Source: Methylomonas rivi (GTDB taxonomy: Bacteria > Pseudomonadota > Gammaproteobacteria > Methylococcales > Methylomonadaceae). Taken from it: a stretch of DNA of 41,236 bases. The notes under the pieces were generated by a model. It was not told the DNA's origin and ran no database searches. It saw only the letters and a program-made list of their open reading frames with translations. Below, piece by piece: positions 34,467-40,732 of this stretch. The DNA lies in contig NZ_JANIBK010000024.1 of NCBI RefSeq assembly GCF_024505165.1, forward strand, positions 1 to 41,236, in the 5' to 3' direction. The stretch's first letter is position 1. Each line of letters opens with the position of its first letter. The translations under genes were made by a program, and so were the position numbers.

Positions 34467-36275
34467 ATGCAACAACTCGATTTGCGCGTAGTGGGGAAAA
34501 CCGCCGCATTAGTGGCGGGCGGCATCCTGAGCGTGGCGCAACCGGCGCAGGCTAACAAAGAGCTGGAGCAGCTCGCCAAGCAAAACACCAACTGGGTCAT
34601 GCAGACCAAGGATTATGCATCCACCCATTTCAGCGAAATGATCGACATCAACGCCAACAACGTCAAAAACCTGAAAGTGGCGTGGTCGTTCTCGACCGGC
34701 GTTTTAAACGGCCACGAAGGCGGCCCGCTGGTGGTCGACGGGGTCATGTACGTGCATACCCCGTATCCGAACAATGTGTTCGCGATCAGCCTGGACGAGC
34801 CGGACAAGATTTTATGGCAGTTCAAGCCCAAGCAAAACCCGGCCGCCCGCGCGGTGGCCTGTTGCGACGTGGTGAATCGCGGTCTGGCCTATGCGCCGGC
34901 CGGCAAGGATTATCCGGCGACCATCTTCCTGAACCAGTTGGACGGCCACGTCGTCGCGCTGAACGCCAAGACCGGCGAGCTGCTATGGAAAATGGAAAAC
35001 TCCGACATCGCCATGGGTTCGACGCTGACCGTCGCGCCTTTCGTCGCCAAGGATAAGGTCATCGTCGGCACCTCCGGCGCCGAGCTGGGCGTACGCGGTT
35101 ACGCCACGGCCTACAACATCAAGGACGGTAAACAAGCTTGGCGCGTCTATGCCACGGGTCCAGACGAAGACATCAAATTGTCGAAAGACTTCAACAGCGC
35201 CAACCCGCACTACGGCCAGTTCGGTCTGGGTCTGAAAACCTGGGAAGGCGATGCCTGGAAGATCGGCGGCGGCACCAACTGGGGCTGGTACGCTTACGAC
35301 AGCGACCTGGAAATGCTGTACTACGGTTCCGGCAACCCGGCGCCCTGGAACGAAACCATGCGTCCCGGCGACAATAAGTGGACCATGACCATCTGGGGCC
35401 GCGACATCAACAGCGGCGAAGCCAAGTTCGGCTATCAAAAAACCCCGCACGACGAGTGGGACTATGCCGGCGTCAACTACATGGGCTTGTCCGAGCAAGT
35501 GGTGGACGGCAAGAAGCGTAAATTGCTGACCCACCCGGACCGTAACGGTTTGGTCTATACCCTGGACCGCGAAAACGGCGACTTGATCAACGCCTTCAAG
35601 ATCGACGAAACCGTCAACTGGGTCAAGAAAGTCGATCTGAAAACCGGCCTGCCGGTGCGCGATCCGGAATATTCGACCCACATGGACCACCAAGCCACCG
35701 GCATTTGTCCGTCGGCGATGGGTTATCACAACCAGGGCATCGAATCCTACGATCCGAACAAGCAACTGTTCTTCATGGGCGTCAACCATATCTGTATGGA
35801 CTGGGAACCGTTCATGCTGCCGTATCGGGCAGGTCAGTTCTTCGTTGGCGCGACGTTGAACATGTATCCCGGGCCTAAGGGCACCTTGGGCCAAGTCAAG
35901 GCGATGAACGGCGTGACCGGCAAAATGGAATGGGAAGTTCAGGAAAAATTCGCGGTCTGGGGCGGCACCATGGCTACCGCCGGCGACCTGGTGTTCTACG
36001 GCACCCTGGACGGCTACATCAAGGCCCGCCACTCCAAAACCGGCGAAGAGTTGTGGAAGTTCAAACTGCCTTCCGGCGTCATCGGCCACCCGATTACCTA
36101 TAAACACAACAACAAACAGTATGTTGCGATTTACTACGGTGTCGGCGGCTGGCCTGGCGTAGGTTTGGTCTTCGACCTGGCCGATCCGACTGCCGGTCTG
36201 GGTGCGGTGGGTGCGTTCAAGGAATTGGCGCACTACACCCAAATGGGCGGCGGCGTGATGGTGTTCTCGCTGTAG
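34467..36275 (+). CDS. mxaF: PQQ methanol dehydrogenase large subunit (calcium type)
   Basis: A 602-residue periplasmic quinoprotein with an N-terminal signal peptide ending near AQA. It oxidises methanol to formaldehyde with PQQ. Landmarks: adjacent Cys132-Cys133 (ring-like disulfide contacting PQQ), Glu206 in GAELG, Asn290 in GNPAPWN, catalytic Asp332 in DEWDYAGVN. Position 334, two after the catalytic Asp, is Ala; lanthanide XoxF enzymes have Asp there. The start is preceded by GGAGG. It heads the mxa transcription unit, expected to form an alpha2beta2 complex with MxaI and to pass electrons to MxaG. Confidence 0.97.
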
Positions 36276-38211: not shown

Positions 38212-38345
38212 CCTTTTTCGGCCTCCCCACGCGCCGCCAAGGAGGGCGGTAACGCCATACGGGTTCGCAGCATCCGTATGGTTGAATGCCGCCGGTGACG
38301 GATAACCGGCGGTTTCAAACCCTAAACCTAAGTTTGAGACTCTTG

Positions 38346-38371
38346 CTCCGGGCCTGCCCCGGAGTTTTTTT
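38346..38371 (+). terminator. Rho-independent terminator after mxaI
   Basis: Arms CTCCGGG (38346-38352) and CCCGGAG (38358-38364) with a 5-base loop, followed by seven T. It lies 134 bases after mxaI and 35 bases before mxaR. It would end or attenuate the highly expressed mxaFJGI transcript and separate mxaR and later genes. Confidence 0.85.
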
Positions 38372-38405
38372 ACAACAGAATAATAACCACGGCGCAACCG
38401 AAGCC

Positions 38406-39425
38406 ATGACAAGCGAAACCGAACTCACCGACTGGCGCGGCAAAGCCCTGCATTTCGAGCGGCAAATCAATCAAACCGTGATCGGCCAGCAACAGGCCGT
38501 GCGCGATCTGCTGCTGGCGGTTTTCGCCCGCGGCCATGTGTTGCTGGAAGGCCAGGTCGGGGTCGGCAAAACCACCTTGCTGCGCGCCGTGGCCCAAGGT
38601 TTGGGCGGACGCTACCAGCGCATCGAAGGTACCATCGACCTGATGCCGGCCGACCTGATTTATTACACCTATTTAAACAGCGATGGTCGGCCCTGCGTGG
38701 ATCCGGGACCGCTGTTGAAGCAGGGCGAAGAATTGGCGATTTTCTTCTTCAACGAAATCAACCGCGCCCGCCCGCAAGTGCATTCGCTATTGCTCAGAGT
38801 CATGGCGGAGCGCAGCGTCAATGCGTTTAACCGCGATTACGCCATGCCGCATGTGCAAGTGTTCGCCGACCGCAACCGGGTCGAGCGCGAGGAAACCTTC
38901 GAACTGCCGGCCGCGGCCCGCGACCGCTTCATGATGGAAATCAGCATCGACACCCCGAACGAGGACGCGGTGCTGGACGAACTGATGTTCAACCCGCGCT
39001 TTCACGATGTCGACAGCTTGATCGGCGGCATCGACAGCGGCCTGATCGCCTATTACCAACTCAACCGGCTGGCGGCGCAAATTCAACAGCATGTGCAAAC
39101 CAGCCCCACCCTGCACCGCTATGCGCTGGATTTATGGAAGGCCAGCAGCCGGCCCGGCGCTTACGGCATTCGTTTGAGCGATGTCGAGATGGATCAATTG
39201 ATACAGGCTGGCGCCAGCCCCAGAGGCATGAGCTATTTTATCCGCGCCGCCAAGGTCAGGGCTTGGCTGGAAAACCGCGCCATGCTGCTGCCGGAAGACA
39301 TGCAGGCGGTATTTCGGGTGACGATGGCGCACAGAATTTTTCTACATCCGATGTATGGCTACCGCAAGGAAGAATTGATGCCGGCGTTGATAGAAGGGAT
39401 TTTGAATGGGATTGCCGCGCCGTGA
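38406..39425 (+). CDS. mxaR: MoxR-type AAA+ ATPase (MxaR)
   Basis: A 339-residue MoxR AAA+ ATPase. Walker A is in EGQVGVGKTT (around residues 50-59) and Walker B in AIFFFNEINRARP. MoxR proteins act as chaperone-like ATPases with VWA or DUF58 partners, here MxaS; in methylotrophs mxaR is required for active methanol dehydrogenase. I chose ATG 38406, since the longer frame from 38286 crosses the terminator. The 680-base repeat region and an extra gene separate it from mxaS, whereas these are usually adjacent. Confidence 0.93.
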   Translation: MTSETELTDWRGKALHFERQINQTVIGQQQAVRDLLLAVFARGHVLLEGQVGVGKTTLLRAVAQGLGGRYQRIEGTIDLMPADLIYYTYLNSDGRPCVDPGPLLKQGEELAIFFFNEINRARPQVHSLLLRVMAERSVNAFNRDYAMPHVQVFADRNRVEREETFELPAAARDRFMMEISIDTPNEDAVLDELMFNPRFHDVDSLIGGIDSGLIAYYQLNRLAAQIQQHVQTSPTLHRYALDLWKASSRPGAYGIRLSDVEMDQLIQAGASPRGMSYFIRAAKVRAWLENRAMLLPEDMQAVFRVTMAHRIFLHPMYGYRKEELMPALIEGILNGIAAP

Positions 39426-39559
39426 TGGTGGTGTTGGATTTTTAGAGTATGTAGCCCGGAATAAGCCGGTAGGCGTTTCCGGGGGAAGGCTTTATGGATT
39501 GTTGGCTTGCGGTTTGGTGTCGCTATCGCGACGGTTTTTTAATGCCAAAAGAAACGACA

Positions 39560-39709
39560 CCCCATGCCGCGTTAATCCTGCGCGCCGAAGGCTTTGAACG
39601 GGGTTTTCCGAAGGGGGGGCCCAGCCCCTGCGAAAAACGCGATGCATCCCTGCATCGCCCCTAGCGGGCTGATCCGTTCAAACCCTCCGGTGCGGCGCGG
39701 CATCAGGGG
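39560..39709 (+). repeat. Structured palindromic element, copy 1
   Basis: Outer arms CCCCATGCCGC and GCGGCATCAGGGG; inner stem GGCTTTGAACGG (39590-39601) with CCGTTCAAACCC (39674-39685); hairpin GTTTTCCG (39603-39610) with CGAAAAAC (39631-39638); hairpin CGATGCA/TGCATCG (39640-39657). The same architecture recurs inverted in copy 2 with different stem sequences that still pair. Confidence 0.75.
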
Positions 39710-39842
39710 ATAAAACCTCGGCCGGTGATCTGGCGGTTTGTGCGCAAGAACAGGGGATATGTTTTGAGCTTGTTTTCTCGTTCCCAAACTGGAGCTTGGT
39801 TACCAGCGTGGAAATGGTCTGTCGGAGTAGAAGGGGTTTCTT

Positions 39843-39994
39843 CCCCTTATGCCGCGCCGAGCACCGGAATGTTTGGCGGGATTCGCCCGAAGGGGTGCGG
39901 CAAGGATGCCGCACGTTGCTTGCAGGGGCTGGGAAGCCCCTTCAAGCAACCCCCGCTAAACATTTCGGAGCGCAGGATCAAAGCGGCATCGGGG
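39843..39994 (-). repeat. Structured palindromic element, copy 2 (inverted)
   Basis: Read on the - strand it has the same outer arms and order of stems as copy 1. Pairings on the + strand: ATGTTTGGCGGG (39869-39880) with CCCGCTAAACAT (39952-39963); GTGCGGC/GCCGCAC (39895-39914); GTTGCTTG (39915-39922) with CAAGCAAC (39943-39950). Stem sequences differ from copy 1 but pairing is conserved. Confidence 0.75.
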
Positions 39995-40105
39995 CCGCCT
40001 TTCTTTTGGATACTTTTCTTTGGCGGAGCAAAGAAAAGTATCGCGCCCGCCGGTGCGCGAACCGGCATAAAAAACCGTCGCGATAGCGACACATAATAAA
40101 AGCCT

Positions 40106-40732
40106 ATGAACATCAAAGAACTAACCAAACAAATCATCCCCAAATCCGGCCTAAACCACTGCGCCGAAACCTACCTCACCTGGGCCGGCGTCGGCCTGGT
40201 CGGCTCCTTCGTGGCGACGACGCTGGACGCCCAGGCCGAGCTGGCTTACGCCGCCTATTACACCAACGCCGTCAACGACGCGGTGGGTTACAACTTCTGG
40301 ATATTGCTGGCGGTGATAGGTCTGTTGTTGTTCGGTCTGAGTTTGCCGCTGATTTATCTGTCATTGCATGTGCCGCAAGCCAAAATCGTTACCGACCAGT
40401 TCAGACGCCTCAGTTACACCTTTTTTCTGGTGGCTTTCGACGAAGGCGGGCTGATGATAGGCATCCTGATCGCCAATTGGCTGCATACCAGCGACAAAAT
40501 GGCGCTGCTGGCGGATAAGTCCTTCCTGTTCAGCGATGTCGGGCTGCTGCCGATACTAGCGCTGGCCTTCGTCAATTCCTTTTTATGGCTGCTCGGCGAA
40601 GCAATATATAACCGCGACGACAAAAGTTATTCCGGCGTGGTCGGCTTGATTATGGCAACGCCGATCAAATATCTGGCGCCGGCTTATCTGAGCTCCGCCG
40701 GCATCATGTTGTATCTGATCGTCAGCCAATAG
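40106..40732 (+). CDS. Unrecognised five-pass membrane protein in the mxa operon
   Basis: A 208-residue protein with about five hydrophobic segments (around residues 25-42, 61-87, 107-128, 150-168 and 180-206). Short charged loops, including VPQAKIVTDQFRRLSY, lie between. I do not recognise a family. It lies between the repeat region and mxaS, with mxaS starting 4 bases after its stop, so it is probably co-transcribed and perhaps coupled with mxaS. Published mxa operon orders (mxaR-S-A-C-K-L-D) do not include such a gene to my knowledge. No clear ribosome binding site is visible. Confidence 0.65.
   Translation: MNIKELTKQIIPKSGLNHCAETYLTWAGVGLVGSFVATTLDAQAELAYAAYYTNAVNDAVGYNFWILLAVIGLLLFGLSLPLIYLSLHVPQAKIVTDQFRRLSYTFFLVAFDEGGLMIGILIANWLHTSDKMALLADKSFLFSDVGLLPILALAFVNSFLWLLGEAIYNRDDKSYSGVVGLIMATPIKYLAPAYLSSAGIMLYLIVSQ

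Follow-up and report, generated by a model that had tools for sequence, protein, structure and literature searches.

The window, that is, the whole 41,236-nucleotide stretch of Methylomonas rivi DNA that was analysed, carries a paired structured element inside the mxa operon. The element begins 91 bp downstream of the stop codon of a gene for a MoxR-type AAA protein and ends 13 bp before an ORF of 208 amino acids, which is followed by a DUF58 gene. We take the first and last of these genes to be mxaR and mxaS, respectively. An earlier, sequence-only reading had placed the element between these two genes, and both are present as neighbours, but the 208-aa ORF separates the element from the DUF58 gene. 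The window also encodes a PQQ methanol/ethanol dehydrogenase (34467-36275). The features at the locus are as follows.

38286-39425, + strand: gene for a MoxR-type AAA protein (family search), upstream flank
39517-40092, no strand: entire paired element, read here as a cassette slot, with inverted ends and tips outermost (inverted repeats and comparison of orthologous sites)
39517-39716, + strand (inward reading): left end, or copy 1, a deletion derivative composed of a tip (39517-39541), a remnant of the middle and a core (39560-39709)
near 39519-39533: left-end tip matching the P0 hairpin of the right end
39590-39601/39674-39685, + strand: stem P5 of copy 1
39603-39616/39625-39638, + strand: stem P6 of copy 1
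39639-39646/39651-39658, + strand: stem P7 of copy 1
39717-39834, no strand: interior of about 118 bp, without a cargo ORF of at least 80 aa
39835-40092, - strand (inward reading): right end, or copy 2, full length at about 258 nt; its selected outward strand is +
39843-39994, - strand: right-end core, comprising P3 to P8
39952-39963/39869-39880, - strand: stem P5 of copy 2
39937-39950/39915-39928, - strand: stem P6 of copy 2
39907-39914/39895-39902, - strand: stem P7 of copy 2
40010-40041, - strand: long hairpin P2 of the right end
40023-40026 with 39995-39998, - strand: pseudoknot PK2 of the right end, formed by P2 loop bases
40042-40066, - strand: segment holding P1 of the right end, in which 40061-40066 pair with 40049-40054 (counted from the unit start at 40092)
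40055-40059 with 40042-40046, - strand: pseudoknot PK1 of the right end (counted likewise)
40076-40090, - strand: tip hairpin P0 of the right end (A1 structure, counted likewise)
40106-40732, + strand: 208-aa ORF, downstream flank, without a Pfam or NCBIfam match
from 40737, continuing past the window edge: DUF58 gene

The proposal that the locus contains two inverted structured copies was borne out. The inverted-repeat arms extend for 103 nt with 73% complementarity, the outermost 25 nt (39517-39541 and 40068-40092) match perfectly as terminal inverted repeats, and the named stems are present. Each copy also folds better than all of 200 dinucleotide shuffles (z = -5.68 for copy 1 and -7.71 for copy 2). 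The GTCGCTATCGCGACGG repeat, which had been thought to bracket both copies from outside, is instead the tip of each copy, and a full copy runs for about 258 nt from 40092 down to 39835. Copy 1 keeps the tip and the core, without P1/PK1 and most of P2 between them; it is a deletion derivative, the orthologous left ends of genomes G013 and G026 being full length. The two copies are real, but the better reading is of a single cassette, with the copies as its ends and an interior that is exchanged among strains.

A full end comprises a tip hairpin (P0), an H-type pseudoknot, a long hairpin and a branched core. The loop of P1 pairs with the bases just 3' of it (PK1), the loop of the long hairpin P2 makes a second pseudoknot (PK2) with bases after the hairpin, and the core consists of P3 to P8. 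A structure of 82 pairs was drawn by eye on an alignment, called A1, of 69 full ends of the genus, and for this reason the structure is not independent of A1. In this alignment, 96.5% of 5586 cells are paired across the 82 pairs and 69 ends, two-sided changes occur in 43 of the 82 pairs (634 such cells), and the covariation score is 0.286, versus 0.088 in shuffles. None of 500 shuffles was as high in pairing, in pairs with two-sided changes, in the number of such cells or in covariation score. The count of further pair types is not above that of shuffles (77 versus 78.8, with 412 of 500 as high). Sliding the partners by 1-3 columns lowers pairing to 39-45%. The bases of both pseudoknots covary, and the weak pairs of the structure are 156-182, 157-181 and 135-240. 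At class level, 60 matches, of which 54 are distinct, were aligned by fitting to the model, which tilts the alignment towards the structure; 93.3% of its cells are paired, versus 61.2% on average in its shuffles, and two-sided changes occur in 48 of 48 pairs.

Compensatory changes between the two copies in the window had suggested that the folded form is selected, and the comparison of many copies strongly supports this idea, both in the 69 genus ends, where pairing held when the copies were checked for stems that stop pairing, and in the class-level alignment. Chance pairing, or a resemblance between unrelated repeats, is ruled out by the covariation of 69 copies relative to shuffles and slid partners. 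The fold is therefore under selection. In some ends (L315:790-1112, L338:602-927, L323:2290-2617 and L341:566-962), P2 or the vicinity of P7/P8 has gained additional hairpins, and the adjoining pairs and the partner of the P2 loop stay in place.

At gathering scores, no Rfam family corresponds to the element, and the only match in the window is a tRNA elsewhere. A match to RsmW (29.6 bits, with 52 needed) and two matches to microRNAs fall below threshold and were treated as chance. The covariation suffices to define a structured family absent from Rfam 15, and searches of open-access published papers found no description of the element.

Mismatches within the helices differ between the two strands. 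In the aligned, inward sense of A1, there are 18 G.U and 90 A.C cells. In raw counts without tree correction, the outward strand has 71 G.U versus 18 A.C cells in the 69 ends (about 4:1, once pairs in which other mismatches exceed 15% are left out), G.U exceeds A.C in 46 of the 69 ends individually (with the reverse in 4 and equality in the rest), the 30 rows of less than 85% identity have 35 versus 13, the 120 ends scored in paired elements have 198 versus 43, and the class-level alignment has a smaller excess of 90 versus 46. The G.U-tolerant strand is the one read from core to tip, that is, outward from the interior. Because G.U exceeds A.C on the outward strand only, selection acts on a single strand and not on a symmetric cruciform. 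Thus, where the initial reading had offered either RNA or cruciform DNA, a folded strand of either RNA or single-stranded DNA is retained, but a symmetric double-stranded cruciform is disfavored. Ends downstream and upstream of a cargo gene are equally preserved (97.9% versus 97.3%, p = 0.11, 43 elements), which makes a simple role at the 3' end of the cargo mRNA unlikely.

The M. rivi genome contains 97 BLAST matches to the region and at least 37 core matches. Ends occur in 34 of 37 genomes of the genus, and a search of the same 37 genomes found no matches to the element in G023, G028 and G030. The core model, R1, has matches in 35 of 81 genomes of the family and in 25 of 229 genomes of Gammaproteobacteria at an E-value of 0.001, and in 4 of 249 genomes of the phylum, all of the same class, at 0.0001; each set includes the M. 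rivi genome. Pairs in -/+ order are found in other families (G126, G150, G197, G237 and G238), and pairs in the opposite order, tip to tip, in G277 and G121. In two Xanthomonas sp. loci (L203:5466-6054 and L172:6910-7483), the ends likewise lie tip to tip, the reverse of the Methylomonas arrangement, and flank a REP-like palindrome of the GTAGGAGCGGCTTCAGCCGCGAC type. The tip-out arrangement is therefore not universal.

A pattern for the long hairpin matches at least 117 stretches. The matches listed include Xanthomonas, Lysobacter, Dyella, Luteimonas, Acidovorax, Silvimonas, Solimonas, Methylobacter, Aggregatibacter, Actinobacillus, Desulfobacterales and Desulfobulbus metagenome-assembled genomes, and others. 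A core match at an E-value of 0.01 is present in 47 of the 80 hairpin loci listed, so the long hairpin spreads more widely than the recognizable core. Apparently solitary ends with the same hairpin are found in Aggregatibacter (L193:4440-4700) and Acidovorax (L186:3020-3260); model R1 recognizes the core weakly in the latter and does not recognize it in the former. Eleven plasmid records match, only over 42-48 nt around the long hairpin, and searches of phages gave no match to the element.

Methylomonas ends are mostly arranged as inverted pairs, with tips outermost, around AT-rich and mostly unknown cargo. In 71 scanned Methylomonas loci, 66 of 84 cases of adjacent ends less than 6 kb apart are tip-out pairs, and the others are in -+ (8), -- (6) and ++ (4) order; the 66 pairs represent 62 distinct interiors (four elements were fetched twice), and many loci were picked for looking paired. 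A fairer sample comes from G020, in which 14 of 16 single-hit regions from the hit list hold a pair, one of the 16 (L302) having been known beforehand. Interiors of the Methylomonas pairs range from 91 to 2745 bp, and the GC content is 41% in interiors longer than 300 bp, 53% in flanks and 58% in ends. Within a single element, the ends are 79.8% identical to each other, versus 77.7% (38 of 2000 permutations as high), such that homogenization between them is slight at most.

The cargo was surveyed by using 70 distinct ORFs of at least 100 aa. Pfam searches assigned 29 families; in the best 25 listed, Y1_Tnp and DUF4145 have two members each, and the others, which include NYN, DUF1780, DUF1152, Mrr_cat, AlbA_2, HNH, LprI and transposases, have one. 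PADLOC matched eight models, each in one of the 70 proteins, and we claim no defence system. A REP-associated tyrosine transposase (NF047646) is cargo in the same slot of G000 and G024 (L033:2304-2966 and L120:2757-3356), and a diverged stretch of it remains in G025. We rejected RAYTs as a recurrent cargo, because L033 and L120 are one orthologous site, and L289 and L307 are one shared site without a Pfam match.

At orthologous sites, the flanks persist, and the interior is replaced by unrelated AT-rich genes. With all genome pairs compared at each of 12 sites with matching flanks, interiors are unrelated (less than 30% of the shorter one aligns) in 111 of 122 comparisons. The other 11 have at least 30% in common, and several of these are between less related genomes (at site 1, G008 with G011, G007 with G019 and G020 with G025). 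A few of the comparisons have one unmatched flank (G011, G017 and G007 at site 6). At the mxa site itself, interiors measure 570 bp (G026), 321 bp (G013), 467 bp (G021) and 134 bp (G016). Close pairs of genomes show the same pattern. At one site of G008 and G007, the flanks are 98% and 96% identical, and 4% of the interior is common. At site AB1 of G025 and G024, the flanks are 99% and 98% identical, and none of the interior is common. Over 600 kb in each of the latter two genomes, five paired sites are shared, with interiors 0-18% common at AB1-AB3, 46% common at AB4 and without a long match at AB5; the statement that cargo differs at all of these sites would be wrong, given AB4. In G008 and G007, 25 regions yielded 18 pairs. 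Five of these could be matched through one flank or both; the interiors differ at three of the five sites (one with 150 bp in common) and are the same at two.

Two cargo proteins that were searched for in the 37 genomes were each found in two, both times at the same site. One family of interiors occurs at two different sites with about 69% identity (AB3 in G001, and mxa in G026 and G021), and therefore some movement between sites takes place. The left end at AB3 is 100% identical between strains in which the interior differs, and the left end at AB5 is 98% identical at its tip but declines to 82% towards the interior.

Sites that lack some or all of the element were also found. At the mxa site, no end was found in the stretch from G022 or G015, G017 retains the outer portions of its two ends but neither cores nor an interior, and G036 has a left end without inner stems. 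The mxa site of G010 (L098, 656-731) has two facing tips with little between them, a REPIN-like remnant that represents a deletion of ends and interior. Site 2 holds a pair in nine genomes; in G014 and G027, it has no end, and its flanks lie close together, and in G012 and G019, no end was found between flanks 12.6 and 5.9 kb apart. Site 1 has a single recognizable end in the stretches from G012 and G002, with an additional fragment in G012. Because unoccupied sites exist, slots must be founded somehow. The flanks of one slot are far apart in some genomes, for example, in G026, G013 and G016 at site 1, which suggests chromosomal rearrangements with end points at the elements.

A sharp outer boundary lies at GTG, next to four T-rich positions that come before it, and the inner boundary fades after GGG and an A-rich stretch. 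No target-site duplication was noticed by eye at the junctions viewed. Directly outside the tips, strains differ over about 5-40 bp, and flanks further out are mostly 95-100% identical (AB1, AB5 and site 1). Simple flank recombination does not account for these 5-40 bp; the action of an enzyme at the tips might do so.

Several known systems share features with the element. Integron gene cassettes carry small, mostly unknown cargo and have recognition elements that are conserved in structure more than in sequence. The element resembles them in both respects, but it forms no one-directional array, and each cargo has two ends in an inverted pair. An integron integrase exceeds the cut-off in 45 of 81 genomes, including that of M. 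rivi, and is below it in G007, G008, G018 and G049, which have at least 37, 29, at least 37 and 19 core matches, respectively. An integron is thus not supported, given the four unit-rich genomes without an integrase over the cut-off and the inverted pairs of ends. Mobile insertion cassettes and other IS-ended passenger elements have inverted ends around passenger genes, no transposase, and ends that are those of an IS. Inverted ends around transposase-free passenger genes are found here also, but no IS with these ends was seen among the sequences compared here. The perfect 25-bp terminal repeat and the sharp outer boundary are likewise as in MITEs or other insertion-sequence derivatives.

Correia repeat enclosed elements of Neisseria are similar in being numerous, small, intergenic inverted-repeat elements whose location is mostly kept between strains, but the passages cited describe a conserved core, in contrast to the variable interior here (PMC2649163). 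REPINs, which in the cited passages are built from a pair of short REPs separated by about 71 bp (GI group), are also inverted pairs of structured extragenic repeats with compensatory changes and a possible single-strand substrate (PMC3116915). In place of short REP palindromes and a short spacer, however, we find ends of about 258 nt with two pseudoknots and interiors of 91-2745 bp, that is, gene cargo of up to 2.7 kb. Minimal mobile elements (MMEs) of Neisseria are described, in the passages cited, as whole-gene cassettes that vary between the same two conserved neighbours and are incorporated by homologous recombination only (PMC3898611). Here too, strains differ in the cassette that lies between a given pair of conserved neighbours (111 of 122 comparisons, and three of five G008/G007 sites). 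The identity patterns of units and flanks fit incorporation by homologous recombination in part. As far as these passages go, MMEs are defined by their flanking genes (PMC3898611), whereas here one family of folded ends, found across Gammaproteobacteria, bounds tens of slots per genome. The element appears to work like a minimal mobile element and resembles an enlarged REPIN; the favored mechanism is one already known.

On balance, we lean towards a cassette locus that undergoes allelic exchange at fixed sites by homologous recombination, with ends that fold as single strands. A fixed chromosomal slot would be bounded by two inverted ends of about 258 nt, each one folded strand, and its cargo would be replaced mainly when incoming DNA recombines with homologous sequence at that site, through crossovers located either in the flanks or inside the ends. 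Neither an exchange event nor a recombinase was observed in the genomes compared, and homologous recombination is deduced from the patterns. The two ends are preserved to the same degree in either orientation of the cargo gene, and the fold therefore presumably acts at the level of a single strand, which would be single-stranded DNA or an RNA that each end produces separately from the cargo gene. Exchange by homology would not by itself explain why the fold is conserved, and the fold might found, protect or resolve the slot. The slot in the window contains no gene, and part of the middle is missing from its left end.

A less probable explanation is a non-autonomous transposon, a giant REPIN or mobile insertion cassette, in which a Y1 (RAYT- or IS200-like) enzyme acting in trans moves end, cargo and end as a unit. 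Selection on one strand and inverted structured ends would suit enzymes that act on single strands, and the T-rich bases before the tips, the unoccupied sites, the REP-associated transposase genes inside one slot (G000 and G024) and the short tip-to-tip remnants of G010 point in the same direction. Y1 transposases are present in 72 of 81 genomes and in 33 of 35 genomes with ends, but end-bearing G064 (seven core matches, 99% complete) and G060 (three, 76% complete) lack a Y1 match, which weakens RAYTs as the general mover and departs from the RAYT association of REPINs. Moreover, in M. rivi, ends lie within reach of only one of 10 Y1 loci, five G024/G025 sites kept their slots while interiors changed, both traced cargo proteins stay at their own site, and the eye detected no target duplication.

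It is improbable that each end works simply as RNA, with an outward transcript that forms a stable RNA, insulator or processing signal shielding operon neighbours and with passive exchange of cargo. G.U-tolerant covariation, pseudoknots and extra hairpins within helices are typical of functional RNAs, and the element in the window sits inside an operon; however, ends on both sides of a cargo gene are equally preserved, and no Rfam family is matched at the gathering score. A double-stranded palindromic repeat or cruciform with no single-strand role would account for the high copy number and inverted repeats, but the strong strand asymmetry of mismatches and the covarying bases of two pseudoknots make it very improbable.

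Beyond the allelic exchange that we favor, a new class of cassette systems can be proposed tentatively, in which the folded ends are the substrate of a putative enzyme that swaps small genes at fixed slots, from methanotrophs to Xanthomonadaceae. Such an enzyme-driven class would in effect be an integron without an array and without the integron integrase. If the cassette reading as a whole is right, tens of slots per genome in many Gammaproteobacteria would trade small unknown genes at the same address, and a single recognizable bounding element would provide a handle for finding accessory genes. It would then become testable how gene exchange relates to a large fold specific to one strand, a feature that usually points to functional RNA.
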